Shown piece by piece: positions 531 to 12,799 of a stretch of 26,907 nt of DNA (position 1 is the stretch's first letter; each line of letters starts with the position of its first letter). The notes under the pieces are model-generated. The model saw nothing but the letters and a program-made list of their open reading frames with translations, was not told where the DNA came from and searched no databases. The position numbers were made by a program, and so were the translations under genes. The DNA is from a virus. The stretch is from positions 1 through 26,907 of the IMG/VR virus record IMGVR_UViG_3300020457_000078. One strand, written 5' to 3'.

Positions 531-1207
531 TAAATTCCTTTCTTGCCATATCTTAAATAACACATGGCTCCAGTTCTTTCGTCTTCTAAAATTATGGGTT
601 CTTTATAATGTTTTAATCCATATTGTCTTATTTCCTCACCGTTTTCAATTTCACCTAAAATTTTACGATAAGGTGCATATTTCTTTTTACCTAATCTAGC
701 TCTCAAAAATGTTGATGTTGGAACTTTAAATACTCTTGCTCCTCTAAATCTTTTACTTGGTCCAGGTGGATTGTTATCTAAACCTGCTTGTCCAGAAGTT
801 ACTGTTCCAGGAGCAGATTCTTTAAGAAATTTATCTATTGGTTCTTTATATTCTTTTAAAAGATCATTACATCTTTGTGAATTTAGAAATTCCATAAAAA
901 GAACCTCTAAAGTATTTTCATTCACATTTTGTTCTTTTAATAAAAATAGTGCTGCGGCAAGACTTCCGATTTTTGATTTACCACCAGGAAGTTTTTCTAA
1001 TAATTTTTTCATATTAAATACTAAAGTATCCATGAGTTTATAGGATTCTTTTTCTTTAGAAGAAAGGGAAGATCTTTTTTTCAAAGTCTTTCCTTTCTCA
1101 TCTATGATTCCTAATTTATATGCTTCAGTATCTTTAAATGGCGTAGTTAATTTTTTTATAAATTGATACGCAAGATAATAATCAACTCCTGTTCCTATTG
1201 CTGACAT
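530..1207 (-). CDS. Conserved T4-like phage protein, function unknown
   Basis: The product has 225 residues with no signal peptide or membrane segment. The N-terminal half is mainly helical and Lys-rich (LTTPFKDTEAYKLGIIDEKG near residues 20-40, then LLEKLPGGKSKIGSLAAALF near 68-88). A Pro/Gly-rich linker around residues 135-150 leads to a compact C-terminal part with GLKHYKEPIILEDERTGAMC and a final LRYGKKG. From memory, proteins with the same 'TEAYKLGIID' and 'EPIIL.DE.TGAM.YLRYG' blocks are common in cyanophage-type myoviruses, without known function; I cannot check this here. The ATG overlaps the stop of the upstream gene (TAATG), so the two are probably translationally coupled. The ribosome site is weak (AAGAAAG). 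It lies among small late genes, so a virion or assembly role is plausible but unproven. Confidence 0.75.
   Translation of the reverse strand: MSAIGTGVDYYLAYQFIKKLTTPFKDTEAYKLGIIDEKGKTLKKRSSLSSKEKESYKLMDTLVFNMKKLLEKLPGGKSKIGSLAAALFLLKEQNVNENTLEVLFMEFLNSQRCNDLLKEYKEPIDKFLKESAPGTVTSGQAGLDNNPPGPSKRFRGARVFKVPTSTFLRARLGKKKYAPYRKILGEIENGEEIRQYGLKHYKEPIILEDERTGAMCYLRYGKKGI
535..540 (-). promoter_or_regulatory. Ribosome site deciding the start of the Met-rich gene
   Basis: AAGGAA read on the minus strand lies four bases upstream of the ATG at 530. Together with the TAATG overlap it favours this start over the GTG at 563, which would lie 34 bases inside the upstream gene. Confidence 0.65.
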
Positions 1208-1599
1208 TAAAACTTTCTTAATTCTTCAATGACTATTGGATCAATAAAAATATCACTGGAATGAATATTTTTTCCATCTATTCCTACAATTGTTTCAGGC
1301 ATCATTGAAAGCTTCAACAAAAATCCTTTTAAAATAGAATGATATTCTTCTTGTATTTTAAAAAACAATATTCTCACTGCATCTTTTACAGGAAAAACAT
1401 TTGTAAAAACTATCAAATGATTTAATATCAATCTTGTTTTCAATTCATTTGTTAATCTATAATGATTAAATAATCTTTTAATATAAGTTATTTTTTTCAT
1501 ATCCTCATGATATTCACTTTCATCATTACATTGAGGATTGTTATAACACTTCATTGAATAAAGATTGATATTACCTTCATGCAAATTATCAAAACGCAT
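1207..1599 (-). CDS. Conserved phage protein, function unknown
   Basis: The frame can open at TTG 1602 or ATG 1599. I prefer the ATG, which gives 130 residues beginning MRFDNLHEGN, although no clear ribosome site precedes it. The protein is helical and basic in the middle, with MKKITYIKRLFNHYRLTNEL around residues 34-54 followed by LKTRLILNHLIVFTNVF and RILFFKIQEEY. I remember this 'IKYIKRL..Y..TGELK.RLILNH' pattern from a small protein widespread in T4-like phages, possibly annotated as a DUF7207-type family, but this is from memory and no function is attached to it. The start of the 225-residue gene overlaps its stop, and its own start lies about four bases after the coiled-coil gene, so all three are probably co-translated. 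Confidence 0.7.
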   Translation of the reverse strand: MRFDNLHEGNINLYSMKCYNNPQCNDESEYHEDMKKITYIKRLFNHYRLTNELKTRLILNHLIVFTNVFPVKDAVRILFFKIQEEYHSILKGFLLKLSMMPETIVGIDGKNIHSSDIFIDPIVIEELRKF

Positions 1600-1602
1600 C
1601 AA

Positions 1603-1821
1603 TTAAGATGAATTGGCAGTTTTTTCATTTTCTTCTTCAGATTCTTCTGATAAAAGTAAATCCAAAACATTCAATGCACCATTTACCATATGTATTTGCT
1701 TTTCTGTTGTAGTAATTTCATTTTGTAAATTTTGAAATTTTTCAGAAAGCAATTGACTAGTTTTATTTAACTCTTCTTTTCTAGCCACCATTTCTTGCAT
1801 AGAAACACTTTTCTTTGCCAT
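1603..1821 (-). CDS. Small coiled-coil protein, function unknown
   Basis: The 72-residue product begins MAKKSVSMQEMVARKEELNK and is almost entirely predicted helix with heptad-like hydrophobic spacing from about residue 10 to 58. It ends in an acidic tail (SEESEEENEK). The ATG at 1821 has GGAGATA seven bases upstream. There is no signal peptide or membrane segment. I cannot assign a family. A small coiled coil in a late operon could be an assembly chaperone or a structural linker, but nothing in the sequence decides this. Confidence 0.7.
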   Translation of the reverse strand: MAKKSVSMQEMVARKEELNKTSQLLSEKFQNLQNEITTTEKQIHMVNGALNVLDLLLSEESEEENEKTANSS

Positions 1822-1853
1822 AATATATCTCCATAATAAAAATTAAAAAACAA

Positions 1854-2171
1854 TTAAGTTGCAGGTGCAGTTGTTCCAGTAGTTACCGTTACCCATGTAG
1901 GATTTGCACCACCGTTAGCTACATCCGCATTATAACATGCCAATGTGGGTCCACCATTGTTATTAGTGATCCATGCTAATTGACCATCTACCATATTTGT
2001 TTTTGCAGTCATCTGTGCAACAGTCATAGCTGGAACAATTTCTGGTAAATTTTGAATTGTTATTTTTTTATTTTGTGGACTAGATTCCCCTGGCCCATCT
2101 ACTATCATAAGAATATCAGTTGAATCTGCGTCAGTAGCTTGACTCAAATCTGTTATTTTTTTATCTGCCAT
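1854..2171 (-). CDS. Small fibre-related structural protein (probable)
   Basis: The 105-residue product opens with KKITDLSQATDADSTDILMI followed by VDG and later NKKITIQNL. This layout is typical of N-termini of phage tail-fibre and tail-associated proteins. The second half (QMTAKTNMVDGQLAWITNNN, then GANPTWVTVTTGT) resembles short beta-structured 'label' modules found near the ends of marine phage fibres. At 105 residues it has only the attachment-like part and no long shaft or receptor domain. The ATG at 2171 has AGGAG nine bases upstream and is preceded by a late-promoter-like octamer at 2217-2210. A small virion protein is the best guess, whether a fibre adaptor or a decoration protein. 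Confidence 0.6.
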   Translation of the reverse strand: MADKKITDLSQATDADSTDILMIVDGPGESSPQNKKITIQNLPEIVPAMTVAQMTAKTNMVDGQLAWITNNNGGPTLACYNADVANGGANPTWVTVTTGTTAPAT

Positions 2172-2209
2172 TGTTAATTCTCCTAAAAATTCAATGTTTG
2201 TTAAAGTAC

Positions 2210-2217
2210 TATTTATC
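2210..2217 (-). promoter_or_regulatory. Putative T4-type late promoter (GATAAATA)
   Basis: On the minus strand GATAAATA begins directly at the last base of the stop codon of the upstream 232-residue gene. It matches the NATAAATA form of the T4/cyanophage late promoter (T4 consensus TATAAATA). It lies 38 bases before the ATG at 2171, leaving room for a leader that contains the AGGAG site at 2184-2180. The match is short and the genome AT-rich, so chance is possible. The intergenic position supports it. Confidence 0.45.
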
Positions 2218-2915
2218 TAAAATCTTAATTGTATCATAGTTCCCATGCTAGGGCTTGACTGCGACCAATCATACAATTTCGTTCCATGTGCACCGGCTAC
2301 AGCTCCCATACTACCTGCTGCTGCAATTGGCATATTGGAATATTGAGCTCCACTTACTGGGCCTCCATATAATGACATCATCGCTTCATTCATCATACCA
2401 TCCCATTGATAGTTAGCTTCCCATTGTACTGAGCCGTCAAGATCAAATCCATCAGAAGTTCCTGGTCCTACATTCACATTTGAACCGGTATAAATTCTTA
2501 ATCCATTGGTAGTCTGTATTGGTCCGCCACTCTTATAGGCTGACCAATCTGCATCTGCTGAAGCTTCGTCTGGATAGCTCATATAAAGTGTGACTACACC
2601 ATAGCCGCCCATTCCTGCTGCGTACGCAACTATTTGACTGTGTAGAGTTACGGCGTATCTTGTACCAGGTTCTGGCATTCCTAAACCTGAATCATCAGAT
2701 GCGCCAACATCAGTTGTAAGGTTCACGGTTACTAATGTTTCTCTTTGAGCATCAGGATTACCATTTCCACCAGCTGGAACTGTCCAACCTTGGTGCATAA
2801 TCTTTGTTGATGCTGTAGTTTCTGTTGTGTCAGCACCTAAACAATCAGCCTTTTCCGTTGTTGTCAACCATTTTGGTTTATCTGATGTTTGGTCTGTTGC
2901 TCCCCATAAAGCCAT
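2217..2915 (-). CDS. Virion structural protein (probable)
   Basis: The 232-residue product begins MALWGATDQTSDKPKWLTTT, and a GWTVPAGGNGNPDAQRETLV segment follows near residues 43-62. The rest is Gly/Ser/Thr-rich and beta-like, with little charge and no catalytic motif. From memory, short virion proteins starting 'MALWG.TD...KPKWL' and containing a 'GW......R..E.LV' segment occur in cyanophage-type myoviruses; this gives the call, at moderate confidence. The C-terminal half (YNMPIAAAGS-like Gly/Ala stretches, YDWSQSSPSM) is Met- and Tyr-rich. The ATG at 2915 has a strong AAGGAGA site that overlaps the stop of the upstream 56-residue gene. A late-promoter-like octamer begins at its own stop codon. 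Confidence 0.6.
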   Translation of the reverse strand: MALWGATDQTSDKPKWLTTTEKADCLGADTTETTASTKIMHQGWTVPAGGNGNPDAQRETLVTVNLTTDVGASDDSGLGMPEPGTRYAVTLHSQIVAYAAGMGGYGVVTLYMSYPDEASADADWSAYKSGGPIQTTNGLRIYTGSNVNVGPGTSDGFDLDGSVQWEANYQWDGMMNEAMMSLYGGPVSGAQYSNMPIAAAGSMGAVAGAHGTKLYDWSQSSPSMGTMIQLRF

Positions 2916-2925
2916 TTTTTTCTCC

Positions 2926-3096
2926 TTAAAAATTTTTACTTAAAAATTTATTATAATGATCTAAAGATTTAAAACCCAATTCTTTCCATTTACCATCATC
3001 TGTCACTTTTTCAGATGACTTAGAAACTTTTTCTTTCTCTACAGTTTCAACTACAACTTCAGGTTTTGCTTTAGATTTTTTGCTTTTTTTAGCCAT
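2926..3096 (-). CDS. 56-residue Lys-rich protein, function unknown
   Basis: A small frame reads MAKKSKKSKAKPEVVVETVE and ends LGFKSLDHYNKFLSKNF before TAA at 2928-2926. The ATG at 3096-3094 has a strong AAAGGAG site at 3110-3104. The stop codon overlaps the AAGGAGA site of the next gene, which suggests translational coupling. The N-terminal 12 residues are nearly half Lys, a middle part is Val/Glu/Lys-rich, and the C-terminus (KWKELGFKSLDHYNKFLSK) looks like a short amphipathic helix with aromatic residues. I recognise no family. It fills the gap between the 410- and 232-residue genes exactly, which argues that it is real. Confidence 0.7.
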   Translation of the reverse strand: MAKKSKKSKAKPEVVVETVEKEKVSKSSEKVTDDGKWKELGFKSLDHYNKFLSKNF

Positions 3097-3112
3097 TTTC
3101 AAACTCCTTTAA

Positions 3113-4345
3113 TTATTCAGCTACAATTTTGTAACCCATCTCCTCATATTTAGGTATTTTGTCGCGCATCACAAATACAAACTCTTCCAATCCATATGTA
3201 TCACCTGTAACTGGTGTATCTAAAAACATTAAAACATTTTTACCTTTTCTAACCATTGCTGAAAGTTGTTGATATCTTTCATCTTCCATATCAGACCAAG
3301 ATTTACCTCTCATTTTTGTTGGATCTGTACTATCAACTTTATCTTTTAATGTTTTTAAAATTTCCAAAGGAGACATAGAACTTTGTGTTATGTTGGTGTA
3401 TGAAGTATTAAAATCTTCATTGTGTATCAATCCCTTTTTTTCATGAACCATATTTTTAAATCTTTGTGCAGATTCACTCTTTGGTCTACCATGTTTATTA
3501 TGTTGAGCCCAAGCTATTGCATATGCCGCATCTTTACCAACTTTACCTTTTAAACTTTTAACTTGATCTTCTCTACCAGGTGGAGCTTTTTCTTTTAATC
3601 CTGTTTTCTTATTATAATCTTCTAAATCATCCTCTGGATTATTGGGAATATTTTTAAGTATTTCCTTGTCAATATCCTTCAATTGATGAATAAGATGATT
3701 TCTTTTTTTCTTTAAATCTTTTAAAGAAGAATTTGTTTTTTTAAATTCAATACTTTCCATTTTTGGATTTATTGTAACTTTTTCTTTTTTCTTTGAAAGT
3801 TTCATGTTCGGTTCTTTTTTAACTTCTTCATCTTCATCACCGATTTCATAGTCCAAATCTTCTCCATCCCCTTGTTGACCTTGCATTTCTTGTGGTGGCA
3901 TTTCTTCTTGTGAAGACATTTCTTCTTCATCATCATGCATACCATGTGATTTCATTGCTGAACGTAAACCATCCTGATGCTGATCCCTTTCATCATCTGG
4001 AAGTGAATCAAATACCGCTTTTGTTATGTGACCTTTTTCATGTTTTGCATCAGAAGTATTTTCTTCAGGTTCAGCTTGATCAGACTTATCTTGAACATCT
4101 AATCTTCTTTTAACTTCTGCCTTTACTTGTGGACCCATACTAGTACCCTCAACCCAATCTTCATAACTAATTCCTTGAGAAATTCTTTTTAAAGCATCTA
4201 TTACAGATGTTTCAAATTTTTCATCTTTTTTTGTTTTTTCTTCTTCATCTATATAAACTTTTTGAAGAATTGGTGATAGTCCTGACCAAGTATTTCCTCT
4301 TAAAAGAGATGGTCTATCATTTTTATTTTGTAAATTTGTTTTCAT
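3113..4345 (-). CDS. Acidic/basic segmented phage protein, function unknown
   Basis: The 410-residue product starts MKTNLQNKNDRPSLLRGNTW. Residues about 40-90 are helical. A strongly acidic Gln/Met/Asp/Glu-rich stretch follows at about 130-180 (EEEMSSQEEMPPQEMQGQQG), then a Lys-rich helical part to about 235. Next comes the block APPGREDQVKSLKGKVGKDA, then AYAIAWAQHNKHGRPK at about 254-290. From memory this APPGRE..VK.LK...AYAIAWAQ block recurs in proteins of marine T4-like phages, without known function. The C-terminal 80 residues look like a small folded domain. There is no signal peptide, and no clear (I/L)-x-E-A leader like those of its neighbours. The start lies one base after the upstream stop, with AGGATGGGG before it. 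A scaffold/core-like or packaged role is conceivable because of the highly charged segments, but this is inference. Confidence 0.7.
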   Translation of the reverse strand: MKTNLQNKNDRPSLLRGNTWSGLSPILQKVYIDEEEKTKKDEKFETSVIDALKRISQGISYEDWVEGTSMGPQVKAEVKRRLDVQDKSDQAEPEENTSDAKHEKGHITKAVFDSLPDDERDQHQDGLRSAMKSHGMHDDEEEMSSQEEMPPQEMQGQQGDGEDLDYEIGDEDEEVKKEPNMKLSKKKEKVTINPKMESIEFKKTNSSLKDLKKKRNHLIHQLKDIDKEILKNIPNNPEDDLEDYNKKTGLKEKAPPGREDQVKSLKGKVGKDAAYAIAWAQHNKHGRPKSESAQRFKNMVHEKKGLIHNEDFNTSYTNITQSSMSPLEILKTLKDKVDSTDPTKMRGKSWSDMEDERYQQLSAMVRKGKNVLMFLDTPVTGDTYGLEEFVFVMRDKIPKYEEMGYKIVAE

Positions 4346-4346
4346 A

Positions 4347-5687
4347 CTACTGCCCCATCCTAATTGATGAATATTTTTGTGCGGATTTTAGATTTTTATT
4401 TGCATGATCAACTCTTGCGCCACCAACTGCTATTTTACGTTGTGTTATTAAATCTCTATATTTTTTAGCATATTCTTTTTTAACTTTTGCTACTGGACCT
4501 TCTTCTTGCGCAAGTTCAACTGTACCATAACCATCCGCCTCACCAGTTACTTCTCTTTGCATTTTATACTTATATGTAGCATATAAAAGTTTTTCAGAAT
4601 TTTGCCCAGGAGTAGCATTCGCATATCTTTGAACCATTTTTGGTGTTCCCCATTCAACAGGACCTTCCATCTGACCAGGGTGTGGACCCCAAGTAATAGA
4701 CTCTAAAATATGATATAAATATGACCTTTGAAAAAGATCTCCCTTTGATGCACCAAAATCATTTTCAATTCCTTCAAAAAGTTTATCTATTTTTTTAACA
4801 GAAGATTCAATATCTCTTTCTAATCCAGAATGACCATTTTCAAAAAGTAACATATTATTAATTAGTTTATCAGTCTCTTTCATTGCTTCAATTACAGAAA
4901 CATTATGTTTTGTTTTAGTAAGTGATATACTTTGAAGTTCTGAAAATGTTTCTTCAACAATTGGCATGTATGAAAAATTTTCTGTTTCATAATTTAAGTA
5001 TTCAATTTCACATTCTTTTTCTGGTTTAGTTATAGTAAGTTTTTCAGGTCTTGTCGGCCATTCTTTTTCAAAAACTGCTTCTTTTAAATTCAATCCTTTT
5101 CTTACAGACCTCAACATATTATGAATTGTTTTTTCAGACATACTAGAAGGAACACCTTTTTTAAATGAATCCATATCATTTTCTGCCGCAGCTTTTCTCA
5201 TTTTAGATGCGGACATTCCTGTTACACCTTCTGCGTCTGGATCTCTGTCACCAGCACTAACAATTTTTATATTATCATAATCATAATACCCATGTTTAGC
5301 TTTTTTGCCATTATATTGTTCTAATAATTTTTTAAAATCCGCAACTCTGTCACTACCTACAACCATAACCAACTGATCATAATTATTATTTAGCTTTACT
5401 GCAACATCTATAGCTGATCTTACGGAAGAATCGTCTTTAATTGCATTTTTAAAATTAGGAAACATTTCTTTCATAAAATCCATTTTTTGTTTATTAGATA
5501 AAGGATTCTTTTTTGGATCTTGTGATTGACTTCCATAAACGTGTAAGTCTGCTCTAAACCTTTTGGATATATTTCCCGCTGATTCTAACAATTTACCATG
5601 GCCAATAGTTGGTGGATTAAATCTACCAAAAACAATAACCGCAGTTTTATCTTTTGCTTCTTTTAAAAAACTAGTATATGTTTTCAT
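4347..5687 (-). CDS. HIGH-type nucleotidyltransferase with capsid-targeting-like leader
   Basis: The 446-residue product has three parts. Residues 1-11 are MKTYTSFLKEA, matching at seven positions the leader of T4 internal proteins as I remember it (MKTYQEFIAEA), with a gp21-type cleavage pattern LKE|A. Residues 14-195 form a cytidylyl/adenylyltransferase fold: AVIVFGRFNPPTIGH at 16-30 with the (H/T)xGH motif as TIGH, NPLSNKQKMDFM at 61-72, VVGSDRV at 109-115, and GMSASKMRKA at 157-166 in the place of the ISxTxxR motif. Residues 200-446 match no family I know; they begin with another LKEA and contain WGPHPGQMEGPVEWGTPKMV. Relatives of the enzyme domain make nucleotide-activated products or NAD precursors, but the substrate cannot be read here. 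The start overlaps the upstream stop as ATGA and has only a weak A-rich ribosome site. A slippery heptamer lies just before it. Confidence 0.8.
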   Translation of the reverse strand: MKTYTSFLKEAKDKTAVIVFGRFNPPTIGHGKLLESAGNISKRFRADLHVYGSQSQDPKKNPLSNKQKMDFMKEMFPNFKNAIKDDSSVRSAIDVAVKLNNNYDQLVMVVGSDRVADFKKLLEQYNGKKAKHGYYDYDNIKIVSAGDRDPDAEGVTGMSASKMRKAAAENDMDSFKKGVPSSMSEKTIHNMLRSVRKGLNLKEAVFEKEWPTRPEKLTITKPEKECEIEYLNYETENFSYMPIVEETFSELQSISLTKTKHNVSVIEAMKETDKLINNMLLFENGHSGLERDIESSVKKIDKLFEGIENDFGASKGDLFQRSYLYHILESITWGPHPGQMEGPVEWGTPKMVQRYANATPGQNSEKLLYATYKYKMQREVTGEADGYGTVELAQEEGPVAKVKKEYAKKYRDLITQRKIAVGGARVDHANKNLKSAQKYSSIRMGQ

Positions 5688-6760
5688 TTTTTCTTTTTTG
5701 CTTTCTTTATATCACGGAGTTTTTTTCTATAATCCATAACTTTTCTGGCTCTTTCATCTTCTTGATCTTCATCACGAGTGGAATGTGTTTTTCCTCTCCA
5801 TTTCATTGCATTATAAGCATCACCTTCAGGTTGTTTTTCGATTTTACCACCACCTTTTTTAAATTTATGTACAGCCCATGTTTTCTTTAATCTTTCTAAA
5901 TTAGTTTCCTCACAAGGATCATCTTTTGCTTCATCAGTTGGACCATATCCCTTTGGTGTAACATCAGTAATTTTAAAACCCAACTTAGCTTCTTTTTTCT
6001 TTCTTACATTATCTATATGTTTAAAAATTTTATCCAAATGAGCTTTCTTTTCTGCGTCAGTTCTTGGGCCTCTATTTTCTTCATCAATAATTTTTTCTTT
6101 TTTATTTTTAACCACTCTAGAAATATACATTGACTCATATTTATCTACATCTTCAACAGTGACTTCTTCACCCATTGTTTTCAGAAGGTAATCTCTTGGA
6201 TCTGTATCTAAAGTTTTGATGAACTTTAATGCACCTTTTTTGTTACCTTTCTTCAACATGGAAGCAGTTTTCATCATATCTTTTTTGTCAATACCTCCAT
6301 GTTTTATTGCATAAGTTTCAATATCATCTGCTGCCATTTTCATTTGTAGAACTGGACTTTCATCAAGTTCAACTTCTTCTTTATTAAGAGTTTTCTTTAT
6401 AGAATAGTCAGCAAATTTTTGTGCTTGTCTTGCTTTCTTCTTAGCTTTTTCAGGATCAGAAACAGACATTTCACCTCTACTTTTTTTCTCAGCTTTATCC
6501 ATTGCACGATATGCCATATCACCAGACATTTCTTCTACATCATCTTCTGGTGGAGTTCTATCAGGTATAATGTCTTTATCAGTAATTCCGTCAACAAAAT
6601 CAACTTTTCTAACACCATCTTGCTCAAATAGTCTCATCAGTTCATCTTTATCATTTTCAGAAACAGATGATTCATTTAACCATTCAGTAAACTTAACAAA
6701 ATCCATATCTAAATTTTTTGCATGATCTACAATTTTTTGTAAATCAATATTAATTCTCAT
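5684..6760 (-). CDS. Lys/Asp/Glu-rich phage protein, function unknown
   Basis: The 358-residue product is very rich in Lys, Asp and Glu and has no signal peptide or membrane segment. Residues 1-45 look like a small helical domain (FVKFTEWLNESSVSENDKDE), with a possible but weak LNE|S protease-type site at about 28-31. Residues 70-125 are charged and probably extended. Residues 130-200 form a helical block with LQMKMAADDIETYAIKHGGI, KKGNKKGALKFIKTLDTDPR and DYLLKTMGEE. From memory, 'LDTDPRDYL' blocks occur in other T4-like phage proteins of unknown function. The C-terminus ends in a Lys-rich tail. The start overlaps the upstream stop as TGATG and has AGGAGA eight bases before it. Its stop overlaps the next start as ATGA. 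It lies between proteins with packaging-type leaders, so a packaged or core role is possible. Confidence 0.7.
   Translation of the reverse strand: MRINIDLQKIVDHAKNLDMDFVKFTEWLNESSVSENDKDELMRLFEQDGVRKVDFVDGITDKDIIPDRTPPEDDVEEMSGDMAYRAMDKAEKKSRGEMSVSDPEKAKKKARQAQKFADYSIKKTLNKEEVELDESPVLQMKMAADDIETYAIKHGGIDKKDMMKTASMLKKGNKKGALKFIKTLDTDPRDYLLKTMGEEVTVEDVDKYESMYISRVVKNKKEKIIDEENRGPRTDAEKKAHLDKIFKHIDNVRKKKEAKLGFKITDVTPKGYGPTDEAKDDPCEETNLERLKKTWAVHKFKKGGGKIEKQPEGDAYNAMKWRGKTHSTRDEDQEDERARKVMDYRKKLRDIKKAKKKK
5693..5699 (-). other. A AAA AAG slippery heptamer at a gene junction
   Basis: Near the 3' end of the 358-residue gene the codons GCA AAA AAG AAA AAA TGA contain A AAA AAG in the correct phase. 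This is the heptamer used in Escherichia coli dnaX. A -1 slip would continue as GAA AAA ATG AAA, in frame with the downstream nucleotidyltransferase gene, giving a fusion of about 800 residues. No strong upstream Shine-Dalgarno stimulator or downstream hairpin is visible. Such strings are common in Lys-rich, AT-rich genes, so the site is only a candidate. Confidence 0.25.
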
Positions 6761-7644
6761 CAGATTCTCCTGTTTTTTCTATATTCTGAAAATGAAGTAA
6801 ATCCAAAATTTTGCTTATCTTTAATTACACCCTTATCTCTTAAATCATTTTCTATAAGAGCTTCTTCATGTGCCAGTTCTACATCAAGTTCTTCAGCATA
6901 TCCTCTACTTGCTGCAAACTTTTTTGCTCCACTCAAAGATGGATGTGACCCCCAATGATGTGTGCTTCCATTTTTAGATATGGCGTGCATTGTAAATTTA
7001 TCTTGAGAACCTCCACCAGATGTTTCTCTTTTTCTAATTTGAAAAGTTCCTTTATCACTTTTGATTTCATGAACAACATCACCAGACATTGATTCTTTCA
7101 TAGAAACTTTTTTAAGTTTATGCATTTTATCTCCACCCTTTTTATCACCTCGATGGCCTTCATCTTTTTTTACATTAGCATTAGCATAATCTTCAGATTG
7201 AGGACGAGCATATTGAGACTTTTTCTTTATCACTTGAGTACTTGCTTTGTTTGCACTCCTATCTTTATGAGTACCACCAAGAGATGCTGGCATTTGTGCT
7301 TTCTGTGCAGCCATTGCTCTATCTTCTTCCCAACTTTCTCCAATCTCTGATTCTTCTTTTTTCAATTTTCCTTTAGCGAGTTCGCGTCTCATCAAATTAA
7401 AGAATTCAGGAGCCTCATCAATCATATCCAAAAATTGATTTAGGACATTGATTAATACTTGTCTTTCCTGAACAGACGTAACTGCACCACCCTTAACTTT
7501 TTTCATTGCTGACTTAAAGTAAGGCAAATCTTTTTTCTCTTTAATTAATCCAGCCATAACTAATTGTCTTAGTTTGGTAGACATTCCTTCTTCTTCATTT
7601 ACCATTACTTGATAAGATGCTTTGTATAAACTATCCATTGACAT
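6760..7644 (-). CDS. Phage protein of unknown function in the internal-protein cassette
   Basis: The 294-residue product begins MSMDSLYKASYQVMVNEEEG. Residues about 20-95 form a helical domain (LRQLVMAGLIKEKKDLPYFK; ERQVLINVLNQFLDMIDEAP). This is similar, as I remember, to a 'two-helix plus turn' segment present in several T4-like phage proteins between structural genes. Residues 100-190 are charged and low in complexity. A second small domain at about 192-255 reads GTFQIRKRE, then KFTMHAISKNGSTHHWGSHP, and looks like a compact beta/alpha unit. The leader contains VNE|E, which does not fit the (I/L)-x-E rule well. GGAG lies eight bases before the ATG at 7644, and an internal ATG two codons later is an alternative start. 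The spacing to the upstream DUF6267-type gene is three bases. Confidence 0.65.
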   Translation of the reverse strand: MSMDSLYKASYQVMVNEEEGMSTKLRQLVMAGLIKEKKDLPYFKSAMKKVKGGAVTSVQERQVLINVLNQFLDMIDEAPEFFNLMRRELAKGKLKKEESEIGESWEEDRAMAAQKAQMPASLGGTHKDRSANKASTQVIKKKSQYARPQSEDYANANVKKDEGHRGDKKGGDKMHKLKKVSMKESMSGDVVHEIKSDKGTFQIRKRETSGGGSQDKFTMHAISKNGSTHHWGSHPSLSGAKKFAASRGYAEELDVELAHEEALIENDLRDKGVIKDKQNFGFTSFSEYRKNRRI

Positions 7645-7647
7645 TTT

Positions 7648-8880
7648 TTAGCTCCAATTTTTTAATTCTACATTAAAATTATTTCTTGAAAATTCTAACC
7701 GATCTACTAACTTTACCGCACCACCTTTAATCTTGTCTACTGCAACAAATCCTTCTGGTGCTGTTACTTTGTATCCGGCTTTATCCTTTACAAAAGTTTG
7801 TGTTAATTGTTCCATTCTTTCTAATTTTGATACTAACATCATTTTAGCATCAATCAACATATTCATTAAACTAAAGATCTTAGTAAGATCTGCTTTATTT
7901 TGTAGGAAGAACTTTAAAAACTGTTCCTTTTTTTGTCTTCGTATATCCTTAGATTTATCTGTTTTTAACTTATCAATTTCTTTATCAAACTTATTCTCTA
8001 TATATTTAACTAACTCATCTGTATGTCTCTTCGGATTACCTATTGTCTGACCTACTCGTATTTTACTGTTATTAAAAGTTTTAATAATTAAATTAATATC
8101 AGATTGTTCCGCTATTGTATTTAATGTATTCGCACTTATTGTTTGAAAAGTTCTCCCTACAAAAGAAAGTATTTTTGTGATAGTATCAGTATCACGTTTA
8201 GTAAATGTTGCAGTTCCAGATGCATCAGTAAACTTAGCATCTCTAAACCATACATCTCTAGGTTTATTTAAACTATTAATATTTATATTGAAAGACGATT
8301 TCATATCCTCCATTTTACTACCTGAATACTCTGTATGAAATACTATTCCCATCTTTGAATTAAGTATCTCTTTTGCTAAATCAGACTTTAAAGGAACCGC
8401 ATAAACAATTGTATTTGGTTGAAAAGTTACATATGATTCACCATCTATTTTTTTCATCTCCAAATCTTCTCTAGCAAACATCATATCACCCTGTAGTATT
8501 CCCTTGATACCCAATTTTGGTAAATTTTGTAATGCTACTTTTAATTTTTCACCAAGTCCTGGTGGGTGATTATTATCTATATCTTGTGGTGTGTAGTTTA
8601 TCTTTGGTGTTTTATTAAAAATACTTTTAGAACCAACAAAAAATTTATTATTTTCTGGATTAATTCCTGCAAAAACTGCTGGGGCACCATCCCACTTAGT
8701 AGTTATAAAAGTATTAGTAGCAGAACTACCAGCTAGCATATCTCTAAGTGATTGAAGAAAGTTAATGGCACCTCTAGTGCCTACTACTCCACCATTCAAA
8801 ACCTCATCTTCTATATGTTCAAGATGAAGATTCTTTCCTTCTTTTGCTTCGTTGATCAAATGTGATTTGAAAGAGAACAT
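7648..8880 (-). CDS. DUF6267-type ligase-like protein with packaging-type leader
   Basis: The 410-residue product begins MFSFKSHLINEAKEG, where INE|A fits the gp21 protease rule. The body resembles the covalent nucleotidyltransferase (RNA/DNA ligase) superfamily. TTKWDGAPAVFAG at 60-72 supplies a KxDG motif with Lys62 as the possible nucleotide acceptor. GILQGDMMF at 127-135 sits where motif III would be, FQPNTIVYAVP at 153-163 is IIIa-like, and MGIVFHTEYSG at 177-187 is motif IV-like. HLEHIEDEVLNGG at 19-31 is a block I remember from the phage family called DUF6267, which has no proven activity. The C-terminal 200 residues are helical (RRQKKEQFLKFFLQNKADLT). There are four bases between it and the upstream stop, and the ribosome site is weak. 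The ligase-like call is moderately sure; the actual reaction and substrate are unknown. Confidence 0.75.
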   Translation of the reverse strand: MFSFKSHLINEAKEGKNLHLEHIEDEVLNGGVVGTRGAINFLQSLRDMLAGSSATNTFITTKWDGAPAVFAGINPENNKFFVGSKSIFNKTPKINYTPQDIDNNHPPGLGEKLKVALQNLPKLGIKGILQGDMMFAREDLEMKKIDGESYVTFQPNTIVYAVPLKSDLAKEILNSKMGIVFHTEYSGSKMEDMKSSFNININSLNKPRDVWFRDAKFTDASGTATFTKRDTDTITKILSFVGRTFQTISANTLNTIAEQSDINLIIKTFNNSKIRVGQTIGNPKRHTDELVKYIENKFDKEIDKLKTDKSKDIRRQKKEQFLKFFLQNKADLTKIFSLMNMLIDAKMMLVSKLERMEQLTQTFVKDKAGYKVTAPEGFVAVDKIKGGAVKLVDRLEFSRNNFNVELKNWS

Positions 8881-8884
8881 ATTT

Positions 8885-11800
8885 TTAATCTTCTGTCATT
8901 TTTTGTGATGATGTTGACCAAGGTCGAGTATCTAAATCATTATGATCTTTTGGATGTGAACTTAATTTTAATTTATCATGATCACCACCATTTACATATT
9001 CTATAGCATGTGCTTTATCTTTAAAATAAGAACCACCATGTTTTCTATATTTATTAGAATCTTCTGAATGATGTCCATGATCATCATGTTTTCTAATAGC
9101 ACCCCATGTTCCTTTTCTTGTTTCCCAAACAAATCCTCTTTTTAATTGAACAAACCCCCTAATCCTTTCTTCGTCTTGATGTATTTGAAGAATACTATGT
9201 TGTGTTGAATGATCAGGATGATCACTTATTGGTTTATCATGATATGTTGCACCAACATAAGAATTAGATGGTTCTGGTTCTTTTTCACTTGGTTTGATAA
9301 CTTGTCGAACTGTTTTTGGTTTTGTGCTTCTAGATTTTTCTGTAGCCCAAAGAGATAAATGAGTAGAATTCTCATGCATTTCATATTCAATATTATTTTC
9401 TTTTAATGCGTCAATAATATCTTTAGATAAACCTGGTTCATATGTATCAATTGTATCCAGTATTTCTTGTGTTATATGCATTTTATTTACTTTAATTTCA
9501 TTAGAAACCATTTCATCCCAAGAACCAGTTGTTTTTTTGTCATCCATATATCCATGTATTCTTTCTTGGAGTTTTGAAGAATGCTTTTTCATTACCATTT
9601 CAACACTATCAAAGTAATTTTTTATTAATTTATTTTTAGATTTGTTATCGGAATTTCTTCCAAATTCAGACCACACTCGCCAAAAATCATTATATTTCAT
9701 ATCATCAATATCAGATTCAGAATATCCTCTAAGTGTCCTAGATCCCTTTATATTTTCTTTCACTATATCTTTACATTTCCAAACTAAATCAGTTTTAAAT
9801 TCTTTTATATGTTCTTGCCAAAAAGGACTGTTATCAAAATAATTCATAGCAACATATCTTCTCCCAGATTCATCTGGTCTACTCATGACATCTTCAGAGT
9901 TTGCCATTAAAATATTTGCTTCAAGTTCCGCAACAATTCCACCCCCATTGTTTATACCATTTCTTATTGGGTGGCTATCCATATTATAAAACGCTGAAAT
10001 TGATTTTTTAGTTCCTTGTAATTCTAATAAATCTTTTACATGATGTGGATCAACTACATGAAATACGGTATCTCTTTTTGTAGGAAATACTCTTTTCATC
10101 ATAGATGGAGAAAGTGGAATTTGTAATGGTTCTTGTATTTCTTCTTGATTATCAAAATCAGGAAAAACTCTGTCAATTGTCCCACCTTGCCATGCTAATC
10201 TTCTATCTTCTTCTTCTCTTAATAATTGTAAAGAAAATGAATTAAAATAATCTTCATATATGTCTCTATGTTCTTCTAAACTATCTAGTATCTTTTGTTT
10301 TGCTTCAGGAGAATAGTGTGAATATTTTTTAGCAGATAATATTTTTTTTCTTCCAGCATCATCTGTTGCTAATAATTTTTTAGCAGTATTTAAATCAGCA
10401 ATTCCATATAATTCCGCACAAGAATTAGATAACTTTTTAGCAAGACCACCATGCAACTTTTGTTCAAACTTCATTTGTCCACCATAATGTCTACCATCTT
10501 GTCTAATACCTATGGCTGATAAAGGAGTAACTTCACCACTATTTTCTGCTACGTGTGCCAAAAATGGTTCACCTTTATCATACTTGACTTGAAGATTTTC
10601 TTTTACTTCATCCCAAGTATCAACACCAAACAAATGTCTTGCGGTATCTTGATTGAAATGCATATGACCAATAGCCATATTTTCTTCACCATCAAAAACT
10701 GATTGTATCGGAAAATTTCCTCCAACCTCTCTCAACATACCAGACAATAAAGAAGGATCATTACCAATTGCTCCTATTGAATTTTTTAAATATTCTGATT
10801 CAACATCATTTAAATCTTGTAAATATTTTTCATTACCTTTCATATTTTTTGCAGTACTATACATTAATTTATTTGTGTCTCTAGCATTACCTTGTCCAGA
10901 TTTTCCTTTATCAAAGTCTTCCATTAATGAATCTAAATCATCATATTTTTTATACATTGCTAAAGCATCTTTATCTTCACGACTTAGTGCCTTTTCATCT
11001 TTTTGTTTTAAACTGGACCACCCATTATCATCAGCTTCTTTAAATTTCTTTTTCCAATATTTTTTAGCATAATCATGATTTTTTTCATCTGAAAAAAAGT
11101 CTGTATGAATTTTTCTTTGATCTTCACCAAACTGTGACATACTGATTTTAGAAAAAGGAACTTGTGTTCCTTTATTATCAATTGTAACCATCTTATCTGC
11201 GACTGATGGTTTTTGTGATTCTAAATCATGATAATCTTTTAAAAAATTATTTGCCTTCTCATGATTTTTTGATTTTGGATTGTCAGCTTGTGAATTAATG
11301 GAAGCCCATGATGAGGGTTTATATCCATATTGATCAAACAAAGATATTTGCTGTGCCGCAAGTCTTGCATTATTTTGTTTCTCATCATCAGACAATATCA
11401 TAGTATTAAATTGTCCTGTACCAGAATTCATAAAATTAACTTTTTCATTTTTCTTCAAGGACTCTTGTTGTATTTCTCTAACCTTACCGAGACCATGAAG
11501 TGCCATATAAAAATCAGTAGAAAAACCTTTATTATTTTTATAATCTATTCCACCCAATCCCCTTTCAACTTCTTGTTCCGTGTCCCAACAACAATGTTCT
11601 GGTGGAATCTTATGACCTTTACTTTTCATATAAGTATGAATAGCCATCCTATTCTCTTGCATAGCATGTATCCAACTAGGATCAATTGCTCTGGTTCCAT
11701 AATCATCACCCATTTTATCAATATGATCAGTTAATGAATCTCTTAACTTTTTAAAATCTTGATTCGTTAAAGATGAAGCGGCCATTGTTAAAATTTCACC

Positions 11801-12799
11801 TGCTTGTGCTTGAATTTTTCCTGCACCACCCGCAACACCTTCAGGTAAAAGATCAGATATGGATGGTTTTGTTCCATCAGAACTTGTCATGGTATTCATC
11901 ATTCTTTCAATAACATCAACATAATGTTTTGGAAATGCAGAATTTTCTAACATTTCTCTTGTTGAACCATCAAACTTAAATGGTTTACCATTCTTAGCTT
12001 CTTCTGATAAATAATTTTGTATTGGAGTTGTACCAGGTTCAAAAAATTCTGAATGAAATTGTTTTGGGTCTTGAGAACCTTCATACAATTTCATTGAATC
12101 ATTAATTGTTTCTAAATTAGAAGTTTTTCCATCCAATTCCAATTGTCTGTTTTGTTCTCTGGGATCTACTATATGATGCTCTTCCCCAGATAAAGCATCT
12201 GTTGAAGATTTTTGTTTACCACTCGCTTGTTTTTTCTGATGTTTTTCTATTTCACTTGCTGCAATTTCTTGTGGTGTACCTTTAGCTTCTGATTTTTTAT
12301 CTTCTGATTTTTTAACTTGTGCATCAGTTTTAGGAGTTTGTGTTTTATCTCTATCTCTTGCTAACTTTGGACCTTGTTTTTCTTTTTGTGGATAAGAAAA
12401 TTGATCAATATTCCCATGAACTTTTGGATCATGATTAAAATCATCAACTTCAATATGACCTTTATGAGTATGATCAGGTCTATCAGAACCACTAACACCT
12501 TTAGTTCCATACTGTTTCATCACCCATCGTTCAGCATTATTTTTTCCCTTTGTTCCAGGATCAAAATACATTCTTTGACCGTCATTTCTTTTACCAACCC
12601 ATCCACCACCATTTGATTGATAGATAATACCTTTTTGTAATTGTTTAAACTCTTTATGTTTTCCCCGATTTTTTTGATCTAAATGATGATCCCATTGTGC
12701 TTTATGAAATTTATGGGACTCACTATTCGGGTTTTCTCGATAGGGACCGAACTCAGCTTCAACAATAAAATTTTGATATGCTTGTAAAAGACTTCTCAT
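8885..12799 (-). CDS. 1304-residue protein with packaging-type leader, function unknown
   Basis: The leader MRSLLQAYQNFIVEAEFG ends in IVE|A, fitting the (I/L)-x-E cleavage rule. Residues 20-135 are His/Lys/Gly-rich, with WVGKRNDGQRMYFDPG near 67-82. Residues about 140-235 are charged and probably disordered. Residues 240-900 are largely helical, without a motif I can name. Residues about 911-985 form a distinctive block: TVFHVVDPHHVKDLLELQGT, KKSISAF, GGGIVAELEANIL, then RPDESGRRYV. I have a memory of similar blocks in other marine phage proteins, but no function. The C-terminal 150 residues are again His-rich with RGFVQLKRGFVWETRKGTWG. There is no signal peptide or membrane segment. AGAGGA precedes the ATG at 12799, and a late-promoter-like octamer with an AT palindrome lies 31 bases upstream. 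Its size and leader suggest a large packaged, possibly ejected, protein. Confidence 0.75.
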   Translation of the reverse strand: MRSLLQAYQNFIVEAEFGPYRENPNSESHKFHKAQWDHHLDQKNRGKHKEFKQLQKGIIYQSNGGGWVGKRNDGQRMYFDPGTKGKNNAERWVMKQYGTKGVSGSDRPDHTHKGHIEVDDFNHDPKVHGNIDQFSYPQKEKQGPKLARDRDKTQTPKTDAQVKKSEDKKSEAKGTPQEIAASEIEKHQKKQASGKQKSSTDALSGEEHHIVDPREQNRQLELDGKTSNLETINDSMKLYEGSQDPKQFHSEFFEPGTTPIQNYLSEEAKNGKPFKFDGSTREMLENSAFPKHYVDVIERMMNTMTSSDGTKPSISDLLPEGVAGGAGKIQAQAGEILTMAASSLTNQDFKKLRDSLTDHIDKMGDDYGTRAIDPSWIHAMQENRMAIHTYMKSKGHKIPPEHCCWDTEQEVERGLGGIDYKNNKGFSTDFYMALHGLGKVREIQQESLKKNEKVNFMNSGTGQFNTMILSDDEKQNNARLAAQQISLFDQYGYKPSSWASINSQADNPKSKNHEKANNFLKDYHDLESQKPSVADKMVTIDNKGTQVPFSKISMSQFGEDQRKIHTDFFSDEKNHDYAKKYWKKKFKEADDNGWSSLKQKDEKALSREDKDALAMYKKYDDLDSLMEDFDKGKSGQGNARDTNKLMYSTAKNMKGNEKYLQDLNDVESEYLKNSIGAIGNDPSLLSGMLREVGGNFPIQSVFDGEENMAIGHMHFNQDTARHLFGVDTWDEVKENLQVKYDKGEPFLAHVAENSGEVTPLSAIGIRQDGRHYGGQMKFEQKLHGGLAKKLSNSCAELYGIADLNTAKKLLATDDAGRKKILSAKKYSHYSPEAKQKILDSLEEHRDIYEDYFNSFSLQLLREEEDRRLAWQGGTIDRVFPDFDNQEEIQEPLQIPLSPSMMKRVFPTKRDTVFHVVDPHHVKDLLELQGTKKSISAFYNMDSHPIRNGINNGGGIVAELEANILMANSEDVMSRPDESGRRYVAMNYFDNSPFWQEHIKEFKTDLVWKCKDIVKENIKGSRTLRGYSESDIDDMKYNDFWRVWSEFGRNSDNKSKNKLIKNYFDSVEMVMKKHSSKLQERIHGYMDDKKTTGSWDEMVSNEIKVNKMHITQEILDTIDTYEPGLSKDIIDALKENNIEYEMHENSTHLSLWATEKSRSTKPKTVRQVIKPSEKEPEPSNSYVGATYHDKPISDHPDHSTQHSILQIHQDEERIRGFVQLKRGFVWETRKGTWGAIRKHDDHGHHSEDSNKYRKHGGSYFKDKAHAIEYVNGGDHDKLKLSSHPKDHNDLDTRPWSTSSQKMTED

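Follow-up and report, generated by a model that had tools for sequence, protein, structure and literature searches.

Short N-terminal leaders on genes in the window (the whole stretch of DNA analysed here, a 26,907-base IMG/VR virus record) are very probably T4-type capsid-targeting propeptides, and the gene block that carries them very probably encodes head-packaged cargo, most likely entering the host with the DNA. The virus is a marine relative of phage T4, and the large genes of the window all lie on the minus strand. Three open reading frames with such leaders had been described in the earlier note, and all are present on the minus strand (4347-5687, 7648-8880 and 8885-12799). The block and its immediate surroundings contain the following features.

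3113..4345, minus strand: 410-aa module-built protein adjoining the block, no clear leader (ORF and module matches).
4347..5687, minus strand: 446-aa HIGH-type nucleotidyltransferase with a C-terminal extension (PF01467, E 3e-6; PHROG 3041, E 1e-61).
5079..5093, minus strand: internal cleavage-like site LNLKE/A where the nucleotidyltransferase domain ends, kept in close relatives.
5658..5687, minus strand: nucleotidyltransferase leader MKTYTSFLKE, residues 1-10, predicted cut before Ala11; kept in orthologues.
5684..6760, minus strand: 358-aa protein of short shared modules (local matches to differing proteins in 19 loci).
6671..6706, minus strand: weak, possibly leader-like stretch MDFVKFTEWLNE within the 358-aa protein (residues 19-30), its position depending on the start codon.
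6760..7644, minus strand: 294-aa block protein with a probable leader variant; orthologues keep Y-x-V-M-(I/V)-x-E near the N-terminus.
7594..7644, minus strand: probable variant leader MSMDSLYKASYQVMVNE of the 294-aa protein, weaker than the three main leaders.
7648..8880, minus strand: DUF6267 protein with the ligase/capping-enzyme motifs KWDGAPA, LQGD, EGFVAVD and VKLVDR (PF19782, E 2e-115).
8848..8880, minus strand: DUF6267 leader MFSFKSHLINE, residues 1-11, predicted cut before Ala12.
8885..12799, minus strand: 1304-aa protein, a fusion of two proteins tagged separately in relatives (N-part and C-part separate in L015, L017 and L020-L025).
8888..10195, minus strand: C-part of the 1304-aa protein, residues 869-1304, by alignment with separate C-part genes.
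10214..10246, minus strand: leader-like junction FNSFSLQLLRE, residues 852-862, aligned with MKSFAQFTKLTEEKKRLAW (L015) and MKSFSQLNNLLELRQGEKLAW (L017).
11450..11587, minus strand: WDT...STD...SLKK region, residues 405-450, conserved in five divergent sequences.
12758..12799, minus strand: leader MRSLLQAYQNFIVE of the 1304-aa protein, residues 1-14, predicted cut before Ala15; orthologue leader MPQSFNQFIRE/E in L022, L024 and L025.

The T4 leader given in the earlier note is correct: ipII and ipIII of T4 (NC_000866) both begin with MKTYQEFIAEA, while ipI of the same genome begins with MKTFKEFTS. As had been claimed, MKTYTSFLKEA of the nucleotidyltransferase is identical to the ipIII leader at 7 of 11 positions. 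The DUF6267 gene starts with MFSFKSHLINEA (leader split MFSFKSHLINE/A) and the 1304-aa gene with MRSLLQAYQNFIVEA (leader split MRSLLQAYQNFIVE/A). The latter is closer to T4 than had been said, its core YQNFIVEA matching T4 YQEFIAEA at 6 of 8 positions after a four-residue extension. The 294-aa protein has the variant MSMDSLYKASYQVMVNE/E, with MQDLVKTAYGVMVNE/D and MDSLTQTSYKVMIDE/E in its orthologues. The consensus (I/L)-x-E site is present in the leaders, cleavage itself being predicted. The capsid-targeting sequence of T4 IPI, IPII and IPIII is described by Mullaney and Black (1996), as reviewed in PMC9026906; residues 4 and 7 of the T4 leader mainly target the protein, and residues 8 and 10 govern its processing (PMC9026906).

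If the leaders work in the same manner, an aromatic/hydrophobic pair three residues apart would dock each protein on the prohead core while the head is being assembled; a protease of the gp21 type would then cut after (I/L/V)-x-E, leaving the mature protein in the DNA-filled head. The cargo would comprise the nucleotidyltransferase, the ligase-motif DUF6267 protein, the two proteins in the 1304-aa chain (which may be re-split at the leader-like junction) and probably the 294-aa protein; it would enter the host with the DNA and act before phage genes are expressed. The leaders, their modularity, the block and the protease in relatives can be read from the sequences; cleavage, ejection and function of the tagged proteins we infer.

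The call of a nucleotidyltransferase was borne out by the PF01467 match (E 3e-6), and the motifs characteristic of the HIGH superfamily, GRFNPPTIGH and SASKMRKAA, are intact. Its nearest annotated relatives occur in Methylophilales phage Melnitz, phage C48C1 and many Synechococcus and Prochlorococcus phages, the last two groups belonging to the T4-type family Kyanoviridae. The leader is retained in diverged orthologues (MKTYQRFMTE at 37% identity, MNKTYEQFLTE, MITFKQFFTE) and also occurs in cyanophages S-RIM4, P-TIM68 and ACG-2014f; in homologues of 200 residues the catalytic domain follows the leader nearly directly. The internal LNLKE/A site is similar in Melnitz and C48C1 and absent from other relatives.

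The second protein had been called ligase-like, a description that holds at the level of motifs. K-x-D-G-A-P-A, Q-x-D, EG(F/Y)V and a subsequent K-L are near-invariant in 32 DUF6267 sequences, with K62-x-D64-G65, Q130-x-D132, E376-G377 and K390 invariant; the putative motifs KxDG, III, IV and V thus appear in the order of ligases and capping enzymes (covalent nucleotidyltransferases). The structure model is moderately confident (pLDDT 73), motifs IV-V being poorly modelled, and its PDB matches, with non-significant E-values, included RNA editing ligase 1, T4 Rnl2, DNA ligase adenylation domains and capping enzymes. When DUF6267 and portions of the 1304-aa protein were compared by sequence with the PDB, chance matches or none resulted, and a literature search on DUF6267 found no paper. 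The leaders of DUF6267 orthologues differ in their letters and keep the pattern (MNFTEFLNEA, MQSFKQFINEE, MLNFREYLVEA). One group retains the front half only, e.g., FSFKGY or FSFKGF; in another the N-terminus is longer and includes LVIE; in the examined Synechococcus-phage orthologues the leader is absent. Since the leader is kept, halved or missing among orthologues, the tag is gained and lost independently of the domain. Some DUF6267 orthologues are without the leader or its cleavage site, which was counted against packaging; leaderless orthologues, named beforehand as adverse evidence, were encountered among the DUF6267 proteins of Synechococcus phages and of part of a marine clade, and not elsewhere.

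The giant protein reported earlier is present with its leader, but the description as a single protein had to be corrected to a fusion of two. The N-part is a gene of its own in L022 and L025 (MPQSFNQFIREE..., 671 aa), as is the C-part in L015 (MKSFAQFTKLTEEKKRLAW...) and L025 (MKTFKGYLKEDPPAW...). At the join the window retains FNSFSLQLLREEEDRRLAW, which aligns with the leader of the C-part, and the junction FNSFSLQLLRE may be both a remnant of that leader and an internal cleavage site. No second contig with the fusion was found, and an assembly or frame error is therefore possible. The WDT...STD...SLKK region of the N-part had no Pfam match and, at the level of motifs, possibly resembles a PD-(D/E)XK nuclease. 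The structure model of the C-part was of low confidence and matched no fold; an ADP-ribosyltransferase reading of its VFHV / SIS / ExE pattern was dropped for lack of support. Neither a direct IMG/VR search with the 1304-aa protein nor a comparison with 50,697 phage records gave a relative, and the relatives described here came solely through the neighbours of DUF6267. In L020-L025 the C-part occurs in two tandem diverged copies, with a leader on the first only.

Proteins of the nucleotidyltransferase family are reported from virions of cyanophages S-CREM2, S-SZBM1, S-SCSM1 and S-SM1 (PMC10665884, PMC9146016, PMC9602691 and PMC3037559). For S-CREM2, in whose purified virions 52 proteins are reported (PMC10665884), the whole-genome translation was scored with the strict leader pattern and compared with the virion list. 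The pattern was carried by five virion-detected proteins versus two undetected ones (Fisher p = 0.009), the five being a SAM hydrolase, an APH/ChoK-like kinase, the nucleotidyltransferase, gp13 and gp136; with a looser pattern the association was not significant (p = 0.13). Another detected protein, gp12, whose annotation is that of a Cas9-type nuclease, contains LRFASFMAEA at about residues 17-26, a sequence outside the pattern. Virions of S-SZBM1 were found to contain the nucleotidyltransferase gp140 (MRFRQFIIEA), whereas its leaderless DUF6267 neighbour gp141 is undetected. Two tagged small proteins of S-SZBM1 are likewise undetected in virions, and in this phage alone leaders were not enriched among virion proteins (p = 0.45). 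The T4-like tag, together with the virion location of relatives of one enzyme, suggests that ocean T4-type phages probably deliver ready-made enzymes to the host. A partial literature search found no paper tying these proteins to a capsid-targeting signal.

In S-CREM2, gp6, gp12, gp13 and gp14 (OR473000, 3.8-12.8 kb; L005) are grouped together, are all virion-detected and carry or contain leader-like sequences. Their products are the SAM hydrolase, the Cas9-type-annotated nuclease, a small protein and the APH/ChoK-like kinase, and the four genes constitute a second putative packaged-cargo block.

Virion presence does not equal ejection, and the tagged proteins, although packaged, might have a helper role in the core or scaffold, or be retained in the empty head, with no role as effectors in the host. 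The module-built nature of the 294-, 358- and 410-aa neighbours, which recalls scaffold proteins, fits such a role. We consider it rather unlikely: the enzyme motifs of the nucleotidyltransferase and the DUF6267 protein are intact, and in T4 itself the proteins that bear this leader enter the host by injection and have their effect there (PMC12373910, PMC9391042).

The S-CREM2 authors (PMC10665884) suggest that the proteins are carried into the host, the alternative they give being carry-over or co-purification of abundant proteins. On the latter account the proteins would be ordinary intracellular enzymes, the leaders serving another purpose, e.g., complex assembly or translation start, and the orthologues without a leader would be in keeping with this. 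That explanation is improbable, given that detection in virions was repeated across several phages and laboratories, that unrelated proteins bear one leader of the same form as the T4 signal, which is proven, and that DNA replication enzymes, which are expected to be abundant, are missing from the S-CREM2 virion list.

The spread of the leader supports the reading as a capsid-targeting propeptide. A T4-derived pattern, M.{1,3}[FYLW]..[FYHWILMV][ILVMF].E, was scored at true starts, with the rate at internal Met as expectation, in 98 IMG/VR loci collected via DUF6267, the nucleotidyltransferase and the 358-aa protein. It was found at the start of 124 of 1089 ORFs (4.0 expected) and in 14 of 248 cluster representatives (0.54 expected), an excess of about 26-fold. 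The DUF6267 and 1304-aa leaders of the window miss this anchored pattern by their length, while their orthologues match it. With three larger contigs and the S-CREM2 and S-SZBM1 genomes added to the loci, the tagged proteins comprised 29 families among which no homology was detected; about four of these are likely false, leaving about 25. The search for the leader on otherwise unrelated proteins of related phages, proposed in the earlier note, was thereby carried out with a positive outcome. Lys at position 2, which lies outside the pattern, occurred in 17 of the 29 families (versus 16.5%, p = 3e-7). Ala, Gly or Ser after the Glu was significant per leader (p = 3e-10) but not per family (p = 0.12), and was therefore left out of the argument. 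A single phage may bear the same leader on unrelated proteins, as seen in G008 and G002. The pattern occurred in none of 46 T7 ORFs and in 5 of 220 ORFs over about 150 kb of T4, namely ipII, ipIII, gp61.1 and two others. Matches at UvsX N-termini (MSFLTDMIKE, S-CREM2 gp30) were counted as false positives. That the pattern is a chance product, a short motif common at AT-rich phage N-termini, is very improbable: such a motif surely yields some false matches, UvsX among them, but the excess over internal Met, the lack of matches in T7, the clustering in one block and the conservation across diverged orthologues all argue against it.

T4 gp61.1 (NC_000866, 18966-19130, minus strand; locus L138), a protein of 54 residues annotated as hypothetical, begins with MKTFKEFIKEDM, which closely resembles the ipI/ipIII leader. 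In G002 (1165-3180; L056, L123), a leader opens each of four small ORFs in a row that are unrelated to one another; immediately upstream lies a fifth ORF, with a leader when read from an alternative start.

Of 13 related records, 7 (G008 among them) encode a gp21-type prohead protease, versus 0 of 14 control genomes. It is absent from the window, which is a fragment, and the 26,907 bases hold no head genes, a point counted against packaging. A subtilase-family protease (PF00082; 12833-14632, minus strand) adjoins the block and has no leader. The DUF6267 protein of G008 is 80% identical to that of the window, and all five tagged ORFs of G008 lie within 28-39 kb, around the DUF6267 gene. Most of the tagged families of relatives are located in a single gene block. 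Related blocks have leaders on an adenylate kinase, a CCA/polyA polymerase and a P-loop/zeta-type kinase; they also hold HAD phosphatase-like proteins, some relatives of which bear leaders. These tags may point to a packaged kit for tRNA repair or nucleotides, but the full enzyme set was not seen together in one phage. The earlier proposal of a packaged set of nucleotide-handling enzymes is supported as regards packaging, nucleotide handling being clear for part of the cargo only. A more far-reaching reading is tentative and, taken as a whole, doubtful: an exchangeable packaged nucleic-acid and nucleotide toolkit of ocean T4-type phages, with removable tags, active before phage gene expression, its fused cargo cut by the head protease. 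Its members might be the DUF6267 protein, the nucleotidyltransferase, the kinases, the CCA-type polymerase, the phosphatase-like proteins and possible nucleases, acting, e.g., to undo tRNA or NAD damage inflicted by host defences, an equally doubtful proposal. The 1304-aa fusion, the DUF6267 ligase/capping motifs and the tags on kinases and a CCA-adding-type polymerase are new here.

T4 internal proteins, which are injected and inhibit restriction enzymes (PMC12373910), share with the present system a 10-residue leader with aromatics at 4 and 7, a hydrophobic residue at 8 and Glu at 10, its occurrence on unrelated proteins, and a gp21-type protease (here in relatives). In contrast to those small restriction inhibitors, the predicted cargo consists of enzymes and large proteins, the leader lengths vary, and the proteins of the window are known from their genes, their packaging being predicted. 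The T4 ADP-ribosyltransferase Alt is a head-packaged enzyme that gp21 cuts at both the N- and the C-terminus (PMC5694885); the nucleotidyltransferase similarly has a second cleavage-like site after its enzyme domain, but the Alt leader, MELITE, differs and no homology to Alt was detected. The virion-associated cytidylyltransferase/NMNAT-like cyanophage proteins have a homologous domain, tagged in S-CREM2, S-SZBM1, S-RIM4, P-TIM68 and ACG-2014f, whereas their C-terminal region differs and the accessible text on them describes no sorting signal. Packaged or polyvalent myovirus effectors (PMC9503650, PMC5512222) are likewise head-packaged proteins with enzyme domains proposed to act early; unlike those MuF/portal fusions or single long chains, the proteins considered here are separate, each with a short, probably removable leader.

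If the leaders function as in T4, a 10-residue pattern would predict head-carried proteins of very common ocean phages. It would also explain the enzymes in cyanophage virion proteomes and would point to candidates for injection, many of them functionally uncharacterised, that may have roles at the very start of infection.

Two further forms of modularity were observed. The proteins at 3113-4345, 5684-6760 and 6760-7644 of the window contain modules common to otherwise different proteins, as if shuffled, an example being EKAPPGREDQVKxLKxKVGKDxAYAIAWAQHNKHG. A small LGLxGxGxGxWxDKxG-like module is shared by several tagged proteins between leader and enzyme domain, before different enzymes (L081, L141, L143, L004 and S-CREM2 gp14).
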